Source of the DNA: Limisphaerales bacterium
Lineage (GTDB): Bacteria; Verrucomicrobiota; Verrucomicrobiia; Limisphaerales; AAA164-E04
NCBI GenBank assembly: GCA_024761205.1
Contig: JAMASS010000047.1
Span: 1 to 32,856 of the forward strand
Length of the DNA: 32,856 bases
Reading direction: 5' to 3'
A model generated the notes under the pieces. It was not told the DNA's origin. It saw only the letters and a list, made by a program, of their open reading frames with translations, and did not search any database. This document shows, piece by piece, positions 1,805 through 27,183 of this stretch. The translations under genes were made by a program, and so were the position numbers. The first letter of the stretch is position 1. Every line of letters starts with the position of its first letter.

Positions 1805-2915
1805 AATGAGCACGTTCGAAAGGACAAAAACCGTTATGCACGTTATGAGGATGACTAATATCACCGCCACTTCGAGCTCCGAATGCCAACGAAAATGGCC
1901 ATTTAGTTTATCCCAGCCGAGAATCCGAAAATCCGGAATCCGCGAATCCAGCGGCAGAGAAAACACATTAAAAATGCGCTTCCTTAGTCGCAACTTCATC
2001 ACCAATCACCGGAGTAAAATCCCTGTTCACCTCCAACTGGTCCACGATCTGACGATAATCCATCAAGATGTTGTGATCCTCAGCGACCGACAGATCCAGA
2101 CCTTCTCCAGCAATCGTGATTACGTATTCTGCTCCCAACGCATCTCCTTACTGACTGTAGGTGAAGGTGTGTGTATGGGGACCGCAACGGACCCAGCCGT
2201 CGGTATCTATCGATCGAGGCAATCGAGCAACCAGAATCGAACGATCCCGAGGTTCCATCTCGATCTGAAACGCGCCTTTTCATACTCGGGTCCGCATGTG
2301 ACCTGAACCGAGTATTTGCCCGCTGGCAAATCGACCGTCACAAGCCCGCCGGCCCCGTAAACAATTCAGTCCGTGAAGCCTACCTTCTGGGATTAGAACT
2401 CGAAAAGGTACGAGACATCCTTGCTCGTCTAAGAATATTGATCGCACCAGTAAAAGAGTGCTCCAAATAGCGATCCAAACTCCCGGGACAAACTCGGATC
2501 TCCGACAGTTCAATCGCATCTTTTTTGTTGGAAAAACAATCTCCAGCTTGAAAGTCAGATCAGCCTTGGTCCGATGCGTAATGGGAAACACCGCCCATGT
2601 CGGTTGTTCGATCCGATCCAGGTTCCCTATGGTTTCTCCATCCACCCGCACGCCCCAGCTCTCCTTCACTCGATCATGGGGATCAACAGAACAATCTCAT
2701 CGGCACCTTCCGGCCAATCAAACGTAAGGCTGAACCGCCCCCAATTTCTCTTCTTCACCGGACGCCGATAGCCCAAGTGAGGCGTCAAATATTGTGAGTA
2801 GATCGGAAGACAACGCTTCGGCCCTTTCCAAGGCAATCGGCCTGCAGAGCAAAAAACGCAGGACAACCCAATTGCTGCAAGCAGCATACCGGCCGAGTAA
2901 AGTCAAAAAACTCAC
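1805..2915 (-). pseudogene. CehA/McbA-family (PHP-type) metallohydrolase relic
   Basis: Several minus-strand frames, read in order, rebuild one protein. It begins with a GTG at 2913-2915 and a degraded signal peptide, followed by an N-terminal domain (YLTPHLGYRRPVKKRNWGRF). Next comes a beta-sandwich piece (LVTVDLPAGKYSVQVTCGPE), then SIDTDGWVRCGPHTHTFTYS, ITIAGEGLDLSVAEDHNI, FTPVIGDEV and, in the last frames, NVFSLPLDSRIPDFR and SHPHNVHNGFCPFERAHF. The H-x-H (HTH) and D-H-N elements are metal-site motifs of the CehA/McbA family. There are at least five frame changes, in-frame stops, and C-terminal truncation near 1805. The GTG overlaps the sulfatase TGA (GTGA), so the two were once translationally coupled. 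Family members are secreted hydrolases of varied esters; the ancestral substrate is unknown. Confidence 0.72.
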
Positions 2916-4396
2916 GGCGAATCACCGGCTTGAGCTTGCAGCACCGCTAGCCGTTTCTTCAAATCCCGAACGATTTCGCTTTGCCACATTGCATCGTATC
3001 GATTCTCATTCTCATGCGGGTCTTCAGCGAGATCATAGAACTCCCAACGCTTTGCGTCCGCGACGCCCCTCAAACCGTCGTAGTAGATGAGTTTCCGGGT
3101 CTGGGTTCGGATTCCAAAATGGGCAGGGCGGGATTCACTGTTCTCAAAATAGCGGTAATACATTGCGTCCCGCCAATCCAGCGGGGTCTGTCCCCGAAGA
3201 TTCGTTCGAAAGCTTCGCCCCTGCAGAGAACCTGGAATCGTCACCCCGGCATAGTCGAGAAACGTCGCAGCAAAATCGATATTGAGCACGAGGTCATCCA
3301 AGACAGTCCGCGCACGAATCTCCTTGGGATAGCGAATAACAAAAGGCATCCGCAGGCTTTCCTCCAACATGAACCGTTTATCAAAGTAATTGTGCTCCCC
3401 CAAGAAATAGCCTTGGTCACTTGTGTAGATTAGAACGGTGCTGTTCGTCAACCGGCGCTCCCTCAAATAGTCCATGACACGCCCCACGTTCTCGTCGATT
3501 GCCGCCCCACAACGGAGAAAATCCTTCACGAATTTCTGATAGGTCTCTTGACGGGTCGTTACCGGATCATCCGAAGAGGGGATCAGCTTGCCGTTCCCAT
3601 GCTTCCCGGCAGCGGTCATTCTTCCAGTCAATATTTCGAGCGGCCAACCAGGAACTCGACTATCCTTCGGTCCCGTTGTCCTTAACAGGGTATCCGGTTC
3701 GGGAATTTCTACGTCCTCAAACAAAGCCGCATGCCGCGGATGAAACTGCCAGGGCTCGTGGGTGGCCTTGAAGTGCAGCATCAGGCAAAACGGCTTCGAG
3801 GGCTCACAACGATCCAGCCAGTTCAACGCCTTGTCCGTAAACACATCCGTTGAGTAAGCCCCGGTCTGCACCTCGCCGTTATCCAACGACATCTCATACA
3901 TTACAGGTTCATGGTAACGCCCCTGCCCCTTAATGATGTTCCAGTAGTGGAAGCCCGCTGGCGCTTGTTTCAAATGCCATTTCCCAACCAACGCAGTCTG
4001 GTAACCCACCGCTTGAAGTCGCTTGGCGACGTTATCAGCCGAGCTCGGCAACGCGTCTCTAAGCGTTCTCACCCCATTCCGATGACTATATTGCCCGGTC
4101 AGGATGCTCGCGCGGCTGGGAACACATATGGAGTTCACGCAAAAACAATTTTCCAGCAGCGCCCCTTCAGCCGCCAACCGATCAATATTCGGTGTCTTGG
4201 CAAATGCGGCGAGCCGTCCCCCGTAACAAGACCACGCCTGGCTCGTATGATCATCCGCCATAATGAAGAGAATATTCGGACGATCCGCCGCCGCAAGCGA
4301 TAATGCGCCCAGCAACGCCACCCACCCAGCACGAAAGCGCTCGCCCGCCACCCGCTCCGCCATCCATTTCCAAAGAAAAGCCAGCCTACACATCAC
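2912..4396 (-). CDS. secreted sulfatase (FGly-dependent, family S1)
   Basis: A 494-aa protein of usual length for type I sulfatases, which hydrolyse sulfate esters, in these bacteria often on polysaccharides. It has a hydrophobic export signal (RFRAGWVALLGALSLAAA, residues ~21-37), though the start could instead be the later ATG giving MAERVAG. D48-D49 are metal ligands. C91 in CVPSR is the cysteine converted to formylglycine. GKWH lies at 138-141, SDQG at 326-329 and H335, and FDKRFMLEES follows. The chain ends in a complete sub-domain with FYDLAEDPHEN. The frame is intact although its former partner downstream (the CehA/McbA relic) has decayed. It runs divergent from the restriction-modification operon. 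The substrate cannot be read from the sequence. Confidence 0.93.
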   Translation of the reverse strand: MMCRLAFLWKWMAERVAGERFRAGWVALLGALSLAAADRPNILFIMADDHTSQAWSCYGGRLAAFAKTPNIDRLAAEGALLENCFCVNSICVPSRASILTGQYSHRNGVRTLRDALPSSADNVAKRLQAVGYQTALVGKWHLKQAPAGFHYWNIIKGQGRYHEPVMYEMSLDNGEVQTGAYSTDVFTDKALNWLDRCEPSKPFCLMLHFKATHEPWQFHPRHAALFEDVEIPEPDTLLRTTGPKDSRVPGWPLEILTGRMTAAGKHGNGKLIPSSDDPVTTRQETYQKFVKDFLRCGAAIDENVGRVMDYLRERRLTNSTVLIYTSDQGYFLGEHNYFDKRFMLEESLRMPFVIRYPKEIRARTVLDDLVLNIDFAATFLDYAGVTIPGSLQGRSFRTNLRGQTPLDWRDAMYYRYFENSESRPAHFGIRTQTRKLIYYDGLRGVADAKRWEFYDLAEDPHENENRYDAMWQSEIVRDLKKRLAVLQAQAGDSP

Positions 4397-4603
4397 AAAA
4401 AATTATAGAGAGAAGCGCACTCTACCGGCTCCCCCGCCACTTGAGGAGTCTAAACCAGCCGACCGCCATCCTAGATTGTTTCAAAATCACCTCTCCCAAA
4501 CAGCCCTCTGCCGCCAGCAACAAAAAACGCTGTCTGAGTCGGTCATCATTAACCAAAACCTTCCATAAACCGCTTTCGAAAAACTAGGCCCTAAATCAAC
4601 CTC

Positions 4604-4627
4604 ACGTTTGCATTGACGTTTGCATTG
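4604..4627 (+). repeat. tandem 12-bp direct repeat over the R-M promoter
   Basis: ACGTTTGCATTG occurs at 4604-4615 and again at 4616-4627, exactly head to tail. The second copy begins inside the TTGACG -35 box. Such placement fits an operator, but no regulator gene is recognised other than possibly the Cys-rich ORF that follows. Confidence 0.6.
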
Positions 4628-4640
4628 TTCTCTGTAAAAT
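4613..4640 (+). promoter_or_regulatory. predicted sigma70-type promoter of the R-M operon
   Basis: TTGACG at 4613-4618 and TAAAAT at 4635-4640 are separated by 16 bp. Transcription would start near 4647, about 30 nt before the ATG of the small ORF. The match is by eye to the general bacterial consensus. Confidence 0.45.
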
Positions 4641-4678
4641 TGTGGGTCACATTTGATTCTTGCCTTATTCATAAAGAA

Positions 4679-4888
4679 ATGAAGAACGCTGAAGCATTCC
4701 ATTCTCCTCTAAAGCCGCAAGACAAACTTGATCAAACTGAGGGCTGCAGGCACACAAATCCGGATATTTGTGCGAAAAATAGTGTTCCAAATATCTGCGC
4801 TTTTTCACGAAGTGATGGCTTATGTCTCTGCCCTCCACGCTCTTGGCCAAAACAGTTCGAAAAGTTAAAAAAATCAGGAGAAAACTAA
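4679..4888 (+). CDS. small Cys-rich protein, translationally coupled to the restriction endonuclease
   Basis: A 69-aa ORF. Residues ~23-45 carry five cysteines spaced C-x7-C-x8-C-x8-C-x-C (CRHTNPDIC, then ...NIC, ...GLC, LC), followed by PPRSWPKQFEKLK. The spacing could bind zinc or another metal, but that is inference. The protein does not match a helix-turn-helix C protein of the usual kind and I cannot name its family. The TAA stop (4886-4888) overlaps the endonuclease ATG (4888-4890) as TAATG, and the endonuclease Shine-Dalgarno lies inside this ORF. A longer frame from a TTG at 4613 is unlikely because that codon is the -35 box. The ribosome site before 4679 is weak (AAAGAA). Composition is A+T-rich like the two genes after it. 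Possible roles are controller, antirestriction or chaperone for the endonuclease. Confidence 0.6.
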   Translation: MKNAEAFHSPLKPQDKLDQTEGCRHTNPDICAKNSVPNICAFSRSDGLCLCPPRSWPKQFEKLKKSGEN

Positions 4889-5811
4889 TGAAACCTGATT
4901 TCAAACAGATTACTGAAGAACAAATCGAGAAACGCAATTATTGGATTGGGGAAATTGAGAATTTGAGTGGCAATTTTGGAGACGACTTCGATCGTCTCCA
5001 AACCAAATTAAGGAGCGAAATCAAGGCTGAAGGTTCTCATTCGCTTTTATCACACGTTCGGTTGTGCGGAGCAATTCCAGAGCATTATCCACATGATAGC
5101 AGCGCCGAAAAACTTTACTCGAAATATACAGACGCTCTTTTGGCTGAAACATTTCAGTTCTTAGGGATTACTAGCTTAGTCCTAACGGAACGCAGCGACG
5201 CAGCAGATGTGGAATGTGTAGCTCGCGATTATAGCTTTGTTGCTGACGCGAAAGCCTTCCGACTAAGCCGGACAGCCAAAAACCAAAAAGACTTTAAAGT
5301 TCAAGCGATGGACAATTGGAAAAATGGAAAAATTTATGCAATGGTCGTTTGTCCCTCATATCAACTCCCATCACGGAGTAGTCAAATTTATCAACAAGCT
5401 ATTTCTCGAAATGTTTGCATTTTTTCTTATTCGCATTTGATTGTTCTCATTCAATTCGCAGAGAAACATGGAAAACAGAAAGCCGAGACGGCGTTGAAAA
5501 TGATTTTCGAAATGATTGGTAGACTTCAGCCATCTAAAGATGCCCAAAGTTATTGGAAAGCATTAAATTCGACACTACTTAACTGTCACGATTACCTCAG
5601 TAAAGTGTGGCGTAGAGAGAAGAGAGCAACTCTTGAAGTAGTAGAAATAGCGAAAAGAGAAGCTCTGGCCGACCTGGCAAAAGAGCGCGAACGAATCATG
5701 CGTTTACCTCGTGAGACCGCACTGCGGGAGCTTGTCCGTAAATCAAATATAGATAATCGAGAAACCATGATTAAACGCGTTTCAGATTCTCAAATTCTGA
5801 CAATGGTCTAA
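4888..5811 (+). CDS. type II restriction endonuclease, HindIII family (predicted target AAGCTT)
   Basis: A 307-aa protein. The core block VADAKAFRLSRTAKNQKDF is nearly identical to that of R.HindIII (300 aa, from memory), followed by a matching SSQIYQQA region. D120 and K122 of VADAK, plus D135, correspond to the catalytic metal-site residues of the PD-(D/E)xK fold, with D107 and E101 nearby. The start at 4888 is chosen because AGGAG lies 7 nt upstream at about 4876-4880; an ATG 66 nt earlier would lack this site and only overlap the small ORF. The methyltransferase gene starts 4 nt after the stop. The gene is A+T-rich compared with both flanks, which fits acquisition by transfer. Cutting at A/AGCTT is inferred from family similarity. 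Confidence 0.92.
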   Translation: MKPDFKQITEEQIEKRNYWIGEIENLSGNFGDDFDRLQTKLRSEIKAEGSHSLLSHVRLCGAIPEHYPHDSSAEKLYSKYTDALLAETFQFLGITSLVLTERSDAADVECVARDYSFVADAKAFRLSRTAKNQKDFKVQAMDNWKNGKIYAMVVCPSYQLPSRSSQIYQQAISRNVCIFSYSHLIVLIQFAEKHGKQKAETALKMIFEMIGRLQPSKDAQSYWKALNSTLLNCHDYLSKVWRREKRATLEVVEIAKREALADLAKERERIMRLPRETALRELVRKSNIDNRETMIKRVSDSQILTMV

Positions 5812-5815
5812 GTCC

Positions 5816-6736
5816 ATGAACTTAAATACGATCACACAATCTAGTGCGGATGATTTTTTGAAGGCACTGCCCTCTGAATTCGCACATGCGCTGATCAGCG
5901 ATATTCCTTATGGTATCGGAATGGATGATTGGGATGTTCTTCATGCCAATACCAATTCTGCCTTGCTGGGCACGAGTCCCGCCCAGCAACGCGCCGGAGC
6001 TGTTTTTAAAAAGCGCGGTAAACCTTTAAATGGTTGGTCAAATGCAGATCGTAATATACCACAAGAATACTACAAATGGTGTCGTTCTTGGGGAGATGAT
6101 GCGTTGCGGATTTTAAAGCCCGGAGCTTCTGTAATTATCTTTGCCGGGCGCAGACTTTCCCACCGTTGTATTTGTGCTTTCGAGGATATTGGATTTACGC
6201 TAAAAGATACGCTTGGATGGGTTCGCCCTCGTGCGCCGTATCGCGCCCAAAGAATGAGCGCAGTGTTTGATCGCCGTAAGAACAGGGCGCTGTCAGAAAA
6301 ATGGCGCGGATGGAGGTTGGGGAATTTATGTCCGGTATTCGAACCGATTCTTTGGTTTGTCAAACCATACGCTATTGGCACAACCATCGTCGATAATGTT
6401 ATCAAACATGGAATCGGCGGTTTTAATGAGCATGGATTATTACGTTATTTTTCGAATACGAATAATTTATTTGAAGTTAATTTTGCGCCCGATGAAAAAA
6501 AAATACATCCAACTCAAAAACCGCTTGTTTTAATGCAAGCGTTAATCGAACTCACTACTGCACCCAATCAAATCGTAATCGACCCGTTCTGCGGCAGCGG
6601 AACGACCGCTCTAGCCGCCCAAAATACAGGACGGAATTTTATGGTATCAGATAATTGTAGCGAGTTTGTTGCTTTGGCGAGAGAAAGGATAGGAAGCGAT
6701 CTCTTTAAATTAGCCAGTGGCAAAATTTTACCATAG
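5816..6736 (+). CDS. adenine-specific DNA methyltransferase, HindIII family (beta class)
   Basis: A 306-aa protein that should methylate adenine in the same site the neighbouring endonuclease cuts. Motif IV reads SDIPYGIGMDDW (residues 28-39), an IPY variant of the usual D/N/S-PP-Y/F. The middle section holds the target-recognition region. KKIHPTQKP (motif X) precedes the AdoMet-binding motif I, DPFCGSGTT (256-264). The order IV ... X-I marks the beta class of N6-adenine enzymes. It starts 4 nt after the endonuclease stop with no strong Shine-Dalgarno, so translation is probably coupled. Both enzymes look intact, so the system is probably active. Confidence 0.92.
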   Translation: MNLNTITQSSADDFLKALPSEFAHALISDIPYGIGMDDWDVLHANTNSALLGTSPAQQRAGAVFKKRGKPLNGWSNADRNIPQEYYKWCRSWGDDALRILKPGASVIIFAGRRLSHRCICAFEDIGFTLKDTLGWVRPRAPYRAQRMSAVFDRRKNRALSEKWRGWRLGNLCPVFEPILWFVKPYAIGTTIVDNVIKHGIGGFNEHGLLRYFSNTNNLFEVNFAPDEKKIHPTQKPLVLMQALIELTTAPNQIVIDPFCGSGTTALAAQNTGRNFMVSDNCSEFVALARERIGSDLFKLASGKILP

Positions 6737-6809
6737 TTACTTTTACTCGCTTGTAGCACATTCTCTGGTGTTGTGGGTTAGGACGAGCGTATTCCTTTGC
6801 AGGCGGCGT

Positions 6810-7748
6810 ATGCAGGTTTTTTGGTTAATCGTTGCCTGGCTAACGTTGCCTCACTGGGATCGGGAAGGGCAGGCTGCATCACCGGCGAGCCCTGCAACCG
6901 AGACGAACCTCATTGAGCAGGAGTATTTTCGAATCCTTGAACTCGACGACGCGGCATTGAAGAAGATCGACGAATGGATTCGTGCGAGTCAGCGCCCGGA
7001 CGCTTCGGAAGCCAAAACCATCACGCTAGGCGGCAGAATCAATAATGCAATCAAGCCCGTCAAAGAAGCTTACGAAGCTTTTATCAAGGCTCACCCCGAC
7101 CATGTCCACGTACGTTTAGCCTTTGCCAGTTTTCTCACCGACATCGGCGAAGAACATGCTGCCCTGCCTCATTTGAAGAAGGCGATCGAATCCGACCCCG
7201 CCCTGCCCGCCGCCTGGAACAACCTGGCCAACTACTACGGACACAATGGAGAAATCAAGAAAGCCTTTACCCACTACGAGAAGGCCATCGAGATCAACCC
7301 TAAGGAGTCCGTGTATTACCACAATTTCGGAACAACCGTTTTCCTTTTTCGCAAAGACGTCAAAGAACACTATCAAATTACCGAGTCGGAGGTCTTTGAC
7401 AAAGCCCTGACCCTTTATCAAAAAGCCTTAGAACTCGATCCTAAGAATTTCGACCTAGCCGAAGACATCGCACAAATCTACTACGGCATCCGAACCACGG
7501 ACAGTCCTTCACAAATGGCGCGACCAAAAGAAGCGCTGAAGGCATGGAAACGCGCGGAGAGCTTGGCTCCGGGTGATTTCGAAAGAGAGGGAGTCGTGAT
7601 TCACCTAGCTCGCACTCATATCGACATGGGGAACTTTAAGGCTGCAAGACGCGAAATCGATCGTGTCACCTTGCCGATCTACAAGGAACTGAAAGAGCAA
7701 GTCAGTCGAAGAATTCCAGAGACCAATACCGAAATCGAAAAAGAATAA
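6810..7748 (+). CDS. secreted or membrane-anchored TPR-repeat protein
   Basis: A 312-aa protein from the ATG at 6810. The longer frame from 6717 would overlap the methyltransferase end and add an unusual N-terminus. A hydrophobic export segment ([13 protein letters not shown]) opens the protein. Tetratricopeptide repeats follow from about residue 85: [60 protein letters not shown] and [23 protein letters not shown] arrays are protein-protein interaction scaffolds, and the partner is unknown. G+C content returns to the level of the rest of the window within the first codons, marking the right border of the transferred R-M segment near 6740-6800. Confidence 0.82.
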
Positions 7749-7774: not shown

Positions 7775-8185
7775 ATGTTAGAGGAGATTCAGCAACTGCT
7801 AAACCTTTCTGGCATCGAACGGCACATCTTTCTTTGCGCCGACCAAACCGAAGCCAAGTGTTGCGCTAGGGCCGACGGTCTCGAATCCTGGAACTATCTC
7901 AAGAAGCGCCTCAAGGAACTCGGTCTCGCCACCGCTCAAGCCAAGGTGTTCCGCACTAAAGCCAACTGTCTTCGCGTTTGCACTCGAGGTCCCATCGTTG
8001 TCGTCTATCCGGAGGCGACCTGGTATCATTCCTGCGCTCCGGAAGTGCTGGAGCGAATTATTCAAGAACATCTCATCGGCGGGCAAACAGTCCAGGACGT
8101 ATTAATCACCACTAACTCAGATTTCGGAGTCCGGCGAAGCTGCCCTCTCCAGACAATATCGACACCGCAACCCGCAAACGAGTAA
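7775..8185 (+). CDS. thioredoxin-like [2Fe-2S] ferredoxin
   Basis: A 136-aa soluble protein of the thioredoxin-fold ferredoxin family. Cluster-ligand cysteines occur as C21 with C29/C30 ([12 protein letters not shown]) and C65-x3-C69 (NCLRVC). Next comes the typical strand [15 protein letters not shown] and then the C-terminal block [12 protein letters not shown]. Members carry electrons in the cytoplasm, often with unknown partners. The gene lies 26 nt after the TPR gene on the same strand, so it may be co-transcribed. The last ~30 residues are less conserved-looking. Confidence 0.88.
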
Positions 8186-14319: not shown

Positions 14320-17080
14320 CAAACATCGTTTCCCTCCTGCTTATCTCGGCCCCATTCATAGTTTCGCCGCCGAGAATCGCCGCTAGCCTCGATCAAAAAC
14401 TCCCACCAAAATTACAGCCTCACCTACCAGACCGCCTATTCGTTCGCCCACTTCCAGAAGTCCTCCCTGAAAATGTCCGACAACTTAGAGAGCGCACTAA
14501 TGCAAGACTCCTCAAACACTATCCGTCACTCGACGACTTGCAACTATGGCAAATCAGTCCAGACATTCCTCTTCAGTCTGCCATCAAAGAAATCGAAGTA
14601 TCCGATATCTTCGACTTCGTCGAACCCGACTATCTCATCTACACGGCAGCCCTTCCCAAGGGGCCTGAATCTCGATAAGACAATCACTGGGCTTTGGAAA
14701 ACACAGAGCGACGAGGCAGCATCCCGGACGCCGATATCGACGCCACCGAGTCCTGGTCAATTCGTAATCGGGCGAAGGATGTTATTGTCGCAGCCGTCGA
14801 TACCAGTGCTCGTTACACCCACGAAGAACTCGCCTCAAACACATGATGGAATCCGAACGAAATCCCCGGCAATAGCATCGATGACGATCAAAACGGATAT
14901 ATCGATGAGATCAATGCCATTATCGATGACAGTGACCCGCTGGACGACGTCGATCACGGCACACACGTTGCCGGCATCTTAGATGCCGTCGGTCACAATG
15001 GTCTTGGCGTCACGAGTGCCTCTTGGGAGGTGCAGATCATGCCTCTGTGATTTAATTGAATCGATTCGGCAAAGGCACCACATCCGCTGCCATCGAATGT
15101 ATCAACTATGCCCTCCAAAAGGAATCACACACCATCAACACCAGTTGGGGAAACAAGGCGCTCTCGGGAGCCCTGAGCAGCGCCATCAATCACCCGTTAA
15201 GCCAATACCGTCGTCGTGGCCGCCACCGGCAACAAACGACGCAATAAAACGATTCGATCCCATTGCATTCGCCAACTTTGGGCACATCCTCTCCCTTACC
15301 ACCGCCACGAATCATGACACCCTAGCTAGCTATTCGAACCACGGTGCGGCGTCAGTCGACCTTACCGCCCCGGCGGGTGCCATCCTCTCCACTGAGGCGA
15401 ATGGCGACCATTCCTACAACGTTAACCGTGGCACCTCGATGTCGACACCACTCGCATCGGGCGCCGTTGCGCCCATTTTCCCAAGGCGCCGGCGCTTGAG
15501 ATTGTCACCCGCATTTTGGCGACCATCGATCCGCTCCCCAGTCTCCGGCGCCGGTGCTTCTCAAAAGGCCGCCTCAATCTTTCCCTCGCCTTGGGAGCGG
15601 ATTTGATTGCCGGATTCACCGCCTCGACCCACGCTGTCGCCCCCCGCTCCAAGTTACCTTCACGGATCAATCGCTCGGGGACATCGCCGATTGGTTCTGA
15701 GACTTTGACGACGGACAAACTCGAAACATTCAACCGAACAGCAACATCGCCGGAGAGACAATCCGTTACGATTGGATTGGAAAACCACGGGCAGGATTCC
15801 TCCCCTCCCCTCGTCAACAGGAACCCACTCCTAAAGGACGAACAGGCCCTTGCCTTCATACCACTTTCCAGCAGCGGCATGCCATCGGTCCGGAAAGGGA
15901 CCTCCAAGCGATTTGCGGTCCCGACGGGAGCACCGCACTCAAGCGTCTCTAAATTTCAAATCTTAAACACCGGGATCGGTCTTCTCGGGTGGCAAGCAGT
16001 GCCAGATCAAGACTGGGCTTGTTCTCTCAAAAACGCAGGGCGTTTTGAGGCAGGAAAAGCCGAGACTGTGGTGGCGAAGATCGACCCCATAGCCTCAAAT
16101 TTCGCGCCTGGCAGCTACTTCGGAACGATTCGCTTCAACAACCTCACTTTTGGCACAGGCAGCATCACTCGCCACATTCATCTAATCGTCAATGGAGACT
16201 ACGCCCAATGGGCACCGCACCGGATGCCAGCCTCCTCGCCAAGGGACCACAGGGCGACCCTTCAACCCACTCAACCGAATCTACACAGTGAGCAATGAGG
16301 GATCGACTCCTCGAATAGACAGTCAAACAAAAGGCGTTTTGGCTCGACACCGCACTATCGTCGGGCCTGCTGACAGCGGGCGATAACGAATCCTTTTCCT
16401 TTCGCCTGAATCCCGCTGCCAACAGTCTTCCAGTTGGCGTCCACAAAAGCATCGTCGAACTCGCTACCAACGTTCCCGAACTCCGAAGGATTCGTCATAC
16501 TTCTCGAGTGGTTGTTGACCGAGAGGATTCTTTACTGGTCCTGACCCTGATGACCATCTCATAGCAAAAATCGACGCCACAACCGAGCCGGGCACCGTGA
16601 TCCACCGTTTTCAAGCCGCCAACACCGGCACCCAGCCAGACGGATGGCAGATCACCGTGGATCAGGATTGGCTCGACGTTTCCCCTCCTACCGGCAGCAC
16701 CCTCCCGGTCAAACATCAGTGTCTCAGCTTCAAACGACAGCAGGTATTCAAGCACCGCCGCCGGGTCGCTACGAAGCGAGGATTGACTTTAAGAATCTCA
16801 CCAATTCGGATTCAACAGTCGCCACCCGATCCTTGACAATGGAGATTGTTGAAGCAAGCCCTCCCCTGCGTCTCACCACAAAACTCATCGAAGACCGATT
16901 CGTGGTCAACCTTCAAGGGTTGCCAAACACAGCCTACGCATCGAAACGTCAACAAATCTAAACCACTGAGCGCCTACAGCAGTGTTTCGAACCAATGTCG
17001 ATGGCCGTCTCACTTACAGTACGAGACTGGCATCCGCGCCCTCTTCCCTCTTCGTTCGATTCGTCAAACTCTGAGATCAA
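14320..17080 (+). pseudogene. subtilisin-like (S8) secreted protease relic with C-terminal repeats
   Basis: An N-terminal hydrophobic signal (IVSLLLISAPFIV) and a propeptide-like part (HYPSLDDLQLWQISPD) open the gene. The catalytic triad blocks appear in order but in different frames: Asp in VIVAAVDTSARYTHEEL (~14800), His in DVDHGTHVAGI (~14950), and Ser in VNRGTSMSTPLASGA (~15440), with VVVAATGN between them. After the protease domain come three copies of an immunoglobulin-like/BACON-type repeat (GWQAVPDQDWACSL near 15990, a degraded copy near 16300-16500, and GWQITVDQDWLDVSPPTGST near 16650). The end near 16880-17020 resembles the Verrucomicrobial terminal module (FRTNVDGRLTYS). About ten stops or frame changes make it non-functional. 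Its intact length would be about 900 residues. Confidence 0.82.
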
Positions 17081-25821: not shown

Positions 25822-27183
25822 ATGTGCCAACGCTTAACTCTCGTCATCGCGCTCGGACTGATAAGCTGCGGAGCCGCCACTCAAAGCCAAGCCGCCGCCC
25901 AACCTTCAAACCCTCCCAATATTCTCGTCATTCTCGTCGACGACCTGGGCTATGGCGACCTGTCCGCTTACGGAGCGACGGACCTGAAAACACCGCACAT
26001 CGATCACTTAATCGAATCCGGCATGCGATTCGACCACTTTTACGCGAACTGTCCGGTCTGCTCTCCCACACGGGCAGCACTCCTCTCAGGAAAATATCCG
26101 GACAAGGTCGGCGTTCCCGGTGTCATTCGCACTCATCCGAAGGACAGCTGGGGCTTTCTCAGTCCAGACACCGTGCTCCTCCCCAAAGCCCTTCGGCCCG
26201 CCTCCTACCACACCGCGATTGTCGGGAAGTGGCATCTCGGATTGGAATCACCAAACACCCCAAACGAACGCGGCTTCGATCACTTTCACGGATTCCTTGG
26301 CGACATGATGGACGACTACTACCACCATCGCCGCCACGGGAACAATTACATGCGGCACAACGATCAGGAAATCGACCCGCCGGGTCACGCCACGGACCTG
26401 TTCTCGCGCTGGGCAATCGACTACCTGAACGCCAGAAAAAAAGATGGCAAACGGTTCTTTCTGTACCTGGCCTACAACGCCCCCCATACACCCATTCAGC
26501 CGCCGACACACTGGTTGGAGAAAGTAAAGCAACGCGAACCCAACATCTCTGAAAAACGCGCCCGCCTCGTGGCTCTCATCGAACATATGGATCACGGCAT
26601 CGGCGATGTTTTGGCGAGCCTTCAGAAAAATGATCAAACGAAGGCAACCCTCGTCATCTTCACGAGCGACAATGGCGGACAATTGAACGTCGGCGGTAAC
26701 TGCGGTGCGAATCGAGGCGGCAAACAAGACATGTACGAAGGCGGCATCCGTGTGCCCTTCTGCGCCTCCTGGCCTGGAGTCATCGAGCCCGGGAGCCGGT
26801 CGGATGCCCTCGGCATGACCATGGATTTCTATCCCACCCTTTGCGAAGTCTCTGGAGTCCCGGTTCCACAACCGGTTGATGGCGTTTCTCTTCTCCCAAC
26901 GTTTTTAGGAAGAAGCCAGACCGGGCTCGACCGCACCCTCATCTGGGTTCGCCGAGAAGGGAATATGCGCTACCAGGGCCGCGATTACTACGCCCTTCGC
27001 AAAGGCCTGTGGAAACTCGTGCAAAACACGCCGTTTGAAGCCTACCAACTTTATCATCTCGGCCGCGATCCCATGGAAACCAATAACCTAGCGGCAACCG
27101 AATCCAACCAATTCCGAACTCTCGTTCGACAGCTCATGCGCCACATCCAAGCCGCTGGGCAAACCCCTTGGCAACACCCGTAA
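25822..27183 (+). CDS. sulfatase (arylsulfatase A-like), probable lipoprotein
   Basis: A 453-aa FGly sulfatase. The N-terminus MCQRLTLVIALGLISC has a lipobox (LISC, C16), so the enzyme is probably anchored to a membrane outside the cytoplasm. D40-D41 open the metal site (LVDDLGYGDLS), C80 in CSPTR is the cysteine matured to formylglycine, and GKWHLG, APHTPIQPP and FTSDNGG follow; the C-terminal part includes LRKGLWKLVQ and LYHLGRDPMETNNLA. It starts 16 nt after the FG-GAP gene and is probably co-transcribed. Sequence style is of S1 family sulfatases acting on sulfated glycans; substrate unknown. Confidence 0.94.
   Translation: MCQRLTLVIALGLISCGAATQSQAAAQPSNPPNILVILVDDLGYGDLSAYGATDLKTPHIDHLIESGMRFDHFYANCPVCSPTRAALLSGKYPDKVGVPGVIRTHPKDSWGFLSPDTVLLPKALRPASYHTAIVGKWHLGLESPNTPNERGFDHFHGFLGDMMDDYYHHRRHGNNYMRHNDQEIDPPGHATDLFSRWAIDYLNARKKDGKRFFLYLAYNAPHTPIQPPTHWLEKVKQREPNISEKRARLVALIEHMDHGIGDVLASLQKNDQTKATLVIFTSDNGGQLNVGGNCGANRGGKQDMYEGGIRVPFCASWPGVIEPGSRSDALGMTMDFYPTLCEVSGVPVPQPVDGVSLLPTFLGRSQTGLDRTLIWVRREGNMRYQGRDYYALRKGLWKLVQNTPFEAYQLYHLGRDPMETNNLAATESNQFRTLVRQLMRHIQAAGQTPWQHP

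Follow-up and report, generated by a model that had tools for sequence, protein, structure and literature searches.

What does a 69-residue protein do at the head of a HindIII-like restriction-modification (R-M) operon? The question is raised by the window analysed here, a stretch of 32,856 nucleotides from a Limisphaerales bacterium (Verrucomicrobiota; assembly GCA_024761205.1, contig JAMASS010000047.1), in which a small gene precedes those of an endonuclease and a methyltransferase. The original prediction, made on reading the DNA, saw in its product a possible metal-binding controller, or an accessory that times endonuclease synthesis after methylation.

The operon and its small gene

The features of the locus are the following:

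4604..4627, + strand, exact 12-nt tandem repeat ACGTTTGCATTG x2, overlapping the -35 hexamer
4613..4640, + strand, sigma-70-like promoter TTGACG-16-TAAAAT (consensus match only)
4679..4888, + strand, gene of the four-cysteine mini-protein, 69 aa, C-x7-C-x8-C-x8-C plus the non-conserved C51
about 4877..4881, + strand, Shine-Dalgarno AGGAG for the endonuclease gene, within the mini-gene (from sequence)
4888..5811, + strand, HindIII-family endonuclease, 307 aa, D120/K122 (PF09518, E=1.4e-106; PDB 2e52/3a4k)
5816..6736, + strand, cognate N6-adenine-type DNA methyltransferase, 306 aa (PF01555 N6_N4_Mtase, E=3.9e-37)

The 69-aa open reading frame, its coordinates, its C-x7-C-x8-C-x8-C-x-C spacing and its PPRSWPKQFEKLK tail are present as predicted, and the translated product of positions 4679-4888 is MKNAEAFHSPLKPQDKLDQTEGCRHTNPDICAKNSVPNICAFSRSDGLCLCPPRSWPKQFEKLKKSGEN, followed by a stop. 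The start codon is supported by those of the relatives presented below that open with M(K/R)N at the identical alignment column. At the other end, the last A of the mini-gene's TAA is also the first letter of the endonuclease ATG (position 4888; CTAATG, a TAATG overlap), and the Shine-Dalgarno of the latter gene lies inside the small gene; both had been foreseen. The GC content of the operon is 41-46%, compared with 52-56% upstream. Because the third-position GC content of the mini-gene and of the endonuclease (R) and methyltransferase (M) genes is alike (0.36-0.39, versus 0.58-0.62 in the neighbouring genes), the three probably arrived together, as a single acquired cassette.

The assignment of both enzymes to the HindIII family was correct. 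The PF09518 (RE_HindIII) match covers endonuclease residues 17-298 and profile positions 2-284/285, the PDB chains of HindIII match with E about 1e-36, and the VADAK of the window protein is in register with that of the solved HindIII, which makes D120 and K122 the PD-(D/E)XK residues. AAGCTT is therefore the putative target, as far as family membership can tell. In the methyltransferase, motif IV (SDIPY, residue 28) precedes motif I (DPFCGSGTT, residue 256), and the protein is 50-55% identical to the M proteins of EcoVIII-type plasmids and of two other members of the phylum. The endonuclease is 53% identical to that of the EcoVIII-type plasmids of enterobacteria; used as a query against the genome contigs, it found no relative.

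HindIII and PsaI have R followed by M, head to tail, and a control protein is drawn among HindIII-like clusters (PMC12294265). The system in the window is like the other members of the family (HindIII, EcoVIII, PsaI/PanI, LlaCI, Csp231I) in combining a PF09518 endonuclease with an N6_N4_Mtase, and like HindIII and PsaI in its order, R then M; it differs by the extra four-cysteine gene that overlaps the beginning of R. The control protein of Csp231I is a helix-turn-helix C protein. In the stretches read, the mini-gene is absent from the EcoVIII-type plasmids and from three other PF09518-bearing members of the phylum, so it is not part of HindIII-type systems generally. The EcoVIII-type, HindIII-family loci of three E. 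coli plasmids (L007-L009) have M and R on opposite strands; one of these plasmids is an IncF plasmid that also carries mcr-3.5.

Elsewhere in the window, two sulfatases with SGSH-type C-termini are encoded (2912-4396 and 25822-27183), the region of 17.8-23.2 kb holds a MacB/ABC/ZnuA cluster as well as lpxK and a lipid A acyltransferase, and a 136-aa protein (7775-8185) has a weak likeness, under the curated cut-off, to thioredoxin-like [2Fe-2S] ferredoxins. Between 8900 and 17700 no open reading frame exceeds about 260 aa and forward-strand pieces match subtilase (14983-15606), possibly as a result of broken genes or assembly errors.

A conserved four-cysteine family

The mini-protein belongs to a family with 44 known loci, the window included, in at least eight phyla. 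The 43 relatives were detected by sequence alone, and gene neighbours played no part in their detection. A first search of 377 genomes of the same phylum gave two strong relatives (in its table, with E up to 10, the rows after the first three are noise), and scanning 84,980 species genomes with the help of these yielded 39 loci, of which one coincides with one of the two. Two contigs of a viral collection and one locus found by profile search in another phylum were added; the proteins of L075 and L041 are the same. Among the carriers are Verrucomicrobiota, Bacillota (Lachnospiraceae, Oscillospiraceae, Clostridium fessum), Bdellovibrionota, Thermodesulfobacteriota, Myxococcota, Spirochaetota, Hydrogenedentota and Melainabacteria, many of them metagenome-assembled genomes whose names may be wrong and several of them isolates; Clostridium fessum and Anaerobium acetethylicum are examples of cultured carriers. 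The family is rare, since carriers are few: at least three of the 377 phylum genomes and at least one of 291 genomes of a clostridial class (the centre member itself), both lower bounds.

Identity to the window protein reaches 66%, across phyla. All 41 aligned sequences have T-x-G-C-R-x2-N-P-x-I-C-x8-C-x8-C-x2-P in common, W56 and D46 are almost invariant, and the window protein has the defining traits of the family, namely the TxGCRxxNPxIC-x8-C-x8-C core, a length of about 70 aa and a position against an R-M gene. The description of the protein as a five-cysteine one holds for the window, where five are present, but not for the family, in which four are invariant and C51 is incidental: its position is matched in just one relative, and with two members in all the five-cysteine motif was rejected as a family signature.

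The lack of a database family would suit a frame that is open by chance or a gene in decay. The frames are nevertheless open and conserved across phyla, and dN/dS is 0.03-0.16, well below 1, in most close pairs (the exception is a pair with only four differences). A chance frame was rejected on these two grounds and either version has a negligible probability; judged from these sequence comparisons, the mini-gene is a real protein-coding gene under purifying selection.

No convincing match to the family was found in Pfam, NCBIfam, PADLOC, PHROGs or PDB sequences, and single-sequence searches gave nothing usable, either with the window protein (phages, plasmids, PDB) or with the clostridial member. 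PHROG 22854 (E=0.034, one member) was rejected, as other members gave no support. No description of the family was found in the literature searched, which consisted largely of open-access journal papers. An AlphaFold2 model led by the clostridial member L047 (35 sequences; pLDDT 93.2, pTM 0.78) shows a small, largely irregular domain with one longer C-terminal helix, for which Foldseek returned no PDB match and nothing of note among viral models. The confident fold belongs to this relative and not to the window protein, because the model led by the latter reached a pLDDT of only 67.5; the chemokine-like Foldseek rows that it gave were insignificant and were rejected. For a 68-residue protein, the lack of a structural match to a predicted model is weak evidence of a new fold.

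Association with restriction-modification genes

When the homologues were tabulated with their gene neighbours, as the original prediction had proposed, an R-M gene was found within about 40 nt of the mini-gene in 42 of the 43 relatives, and thus at 43 of 44 loci with the window. The partners are type I systems for 35 of the 43, always with the mini-gene against hsdS, single-chain methylase and specificity (M-S) enzymes for two (L034, L045) and type IIG enzymes for five (L040, L050, L053, L057, L060), and one relative is an orphan. In the 39 genome loci the distance is 0-36 nt throughout (32 type I, 2 M-S, 5 IIG); the three loci found later, in the viral collection and by profile search, are type I. 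The identification of the neighbours is backed by Pfam matches of representatives (Methylase_S, HsdM_N with N6_Mtase, HSDR_N with T1RH-like_C, Eco57I, Phage_integrase), by the PADLOC IIG model (E=0 for the L020/L053 enzyme) and, for R-M genes lying under shadow ORFs or in broken frames (L026, L055, L040), by tblastn. In one isolate, two type I loci carry a mini-gene apiece (L043 and L054, 73% identical), as expected for a dedicated partner. With this association, the family is almost certainly a dedicated partner of R-M enzymes. The prediction of a partner in a HindIII-type operon thus held in that the gene adjoins R-M genes, but was too narrow, since most relatives are found in type I systems and the window is the sole HindIII-type case among the 44 loci. 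At L033 (5571-7887) a RhuM-family gene and a related short fragment separate hsdM from the mini-gene and hsdS.

The orphan (L019/G139; L019:5917-7018) is next to a toxin-antitoxin pair (PIN and Phd/YefM), on a 17.9-kb contig in which no R-M gene was detected. This neighbourhood, together with the position between hsd genes, recalls PrrC in EcoprrI and raises the idea of a guard or toxin-like add-on that is set free upon inhibition of the R-M enzyme by a phage. The orphan is, however, about 180 nt away from the Phd gene and uncoupled from it, and a protein of about 70 aa with no nuclease motif and no match to a defence or toxin family makes an improbable guard. Like PrrC and other hsd-embedded genes, the mini-gene is an extra gene inside an hsd operon, but PrrC has a nuclease domain, which the mini-protein lacks, and the mini-gene is also found at type IIG and HindIII-type loci.

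Gene position and the promoter repeat

By classes assigned by hand from the order of neighbouring genes, the mini-gene follows hsdS or an M-S gene at 15 loci, lies between M and S or immediately in front of S at 11, follows a IIG gene at five and an inverted S half at four, and precedes the first visible R-M gene at five, the window included (contig ends limit some of these). A gene that is mostly internal or last is no leader regulator of the classic type. The start or stop codon of the mini-gene often overlaps the gene before or after it (ATGA or TAATG); these overlaps, together with the position, argue for co-production with a neighbouring R-M polypeptide, which is mostly the specificity-bearing one.

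The window is where a regulator of transcription has most in its favour. Its promoter, TTGACG-16-TAAAAT, is the sole promoter-like site in 4397-6900 (shuffled sequences average 4.7), and the exact 12-nt tandem repeat ACGTTTGCATTG that runs across the -35 hexamer, a possible candidate operator, is expected by chance with a probability of about 0.002 (first-order Markov model, 280 nt upstream). A mini-protein that binds this repeat over its own -35 could control its own operon and time endonuclease synthesis, as a non-helix-turn-helix counterpart of C proteins or of RptR, and the first place of the gene in the window operon and the basic nature of the mini-proteins (pI 8.4-9.7) are in line with that. 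A precedent exists in RptR, a repressor of 79 aa which is encoded at the head of type I islands and binds direct repeats (PMC12255303). However, no equivalent repeat or shared operator was found upstream of 26 other loci, so that the repeat is seen in the window only, though so conserved a protein might imply a conserved operator. The relatives, moreover, are mostly not upstream of an endonuclease gene, and in one orientation of the switching loci described below the mini-gene runs counter to hsdM, with which half S remains in line. Nor is there a match to a DNA-binding family: the prediction that this is no helix-turn-helix C protein agrees with the lack of a helix-turn-helix match for the window protein (Pfam, NCBIfam, PADLOC, PHROGs) and of a convincing one for its relatives (Pfam, PHROGs), and with the confident L047 model, in which there is hardly more than one longer C-terminal helix. 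Control of transcription is thus a doubtful explanation for the family.

C proteins and RptR are the nearest known regulators. The mini-gene of the window resembles the genes of type II C proteins in its small size, in its place upstream of R with an overlap, and in the repeat near its promoter, which is seen in the window only. It differs in its four cysteines, the absence of a helix-turn-helix match and of a shared C-box, and the position of its relatives, which follow hsdS, follow IIG genes or stand between hsdM and hsdS. RptR, too, comes from a small gene strongly tied to type I R-M loci, and direct repeats are present at the window promoter; by its description, it is set apart as a helical protein encoded at the operon head, a place that most relatives of the mini-gene do not share, and with TAGCTA-type sites, and none of TAGCTA, TAGATA, TATCTA and TATATA occurs in window positions 4580-4679.

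An invertible cassette of hsdS and the mini-gene

In three pairs of phase-variable type I loci (L046/L059, L047/L049 and L041/L075), a segment of 876-890 bp, made up of the mini-gene and the 3' part (half) of hsdS, is found in opposite orientations. L046 and L059 are over 99.7% identical, apart from a 94% flank; relative to L059, L046:7322-8199 (878 bp) keeps its direction and both flanks are reversed. The ends of the cassette in this pair are 14-bp inverted repeats, TAAACAAGAATTTA. One orientation places a 378-aa HsdS and then the mini-gene after hsdM; the other leaves hsdM with a 167-aa half S and puts the mini-gene on the opposite strand. A tyrosine recombinase gene is close to the switching type I locus. 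Because the mini-gene is inverted jointly with the hsdS half, only full-length S is in line with it at these switching loci.

In the isolate with L059, where the cassette has the full-S direction, a premature TGA (8148-8150) replaces the codon of the almost invariant Trp of the mini-gene; intact copies are present in near-identical loci.

Evolution with the partner enzymes

Distances between mini-proteins correlate with those between HsdM proteins with r=0.46 (p=0.0006) and with those between HsdR proteins with r=0.52, compared with 0.98 for HsdM and HsdR. Mean identity is 54% for the mini-protein, 37% for HsdM and 35% for HsdR. This slow evolution relative to the partners suggests a target that is common to many R-M systems. 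The family seems, from these comparisons, to move between R-M systems, and one possible common target would be the N6-adenine-type methylase, which occurs in all three kinds of partner.

A constitutive structural or assembly subunit, which stabilises the specificity polypeptide or the M2S complex and has no control function, would account for translational coupling and for the fact that all 42 R-M-linked relatives lie against hsdS or a single-chain enzyme that holds the target-recognition domains. Most R-M systems need no such subunit, however, as the rarity of the gene in both genome sets illustrates, and the EcoVIII-type relatives do without it despite their 53% identical endonuclease. The partners are, in addition, very diverse (HsdM identity goes down to 16%), and a purely structural role is rather unlikely.

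Proposed role

The best explanation of the family, to which we give a probability of about 40%, is control of restriction at the level of the enzyme by a metal-stabilised R-M accessory. The four invariant cysteines would bind one metal ion, probably zinc, and the mini-protein, produced in step with the specificity-bearing polypeptide, would act on the R-M enzyme and not on a promoter. It may hold back cleavage, or favour methylation of unmodified own DNA, when an R-M system arrives or its specificity changes. The effect would be akin to that of phage lambda Ral on EcoKI; Ral, itself a small protein, tips an R-M enzyme away from cutting and towards methylation (PMC3874165). Ral is the nearest known enzyme-level effector, but the likeness is a functional analogy only, in the shift proposed here for the mini-protein: the latter is host-encoded, inside R-M operons, and none of 26 members has a Pfam match to any family, among them those of restriction alleviation (Ral/Lar).

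Several observations stand against enzyme-level control. In the window, the mini-gene heads the operon beside R and not M, and a repeat lies over the -35; this operator-like repeat and the first position fit a regulator equally well. The HindIII-type case is a single one, and related HindIII-type systems do without the mini-gene. The histories of the mini-protein and HsdM agree only loosely (r=0.46), and the L019 relative is an orphan without R-M genes.

Implications

The family is absent from every library searched and merits a name for the use of annotators. On a more speculative reading, its members would have a new fold and make up a novel class of R-M components: small metal-bound subunits that fit enzymes as different in mechanism as those of types I, IIG and IIP, set the balance of cutting and methylating, and are switched together with specificity at phase-variable loci. 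R-M systems must spare the DNA of their host upon arrival and upon a change of specificity. One small family that is associated with type I, IIG and C-less type II systems, and that inverts together with hsdS at switching loci, would offer a common handle on the question of how they do so.
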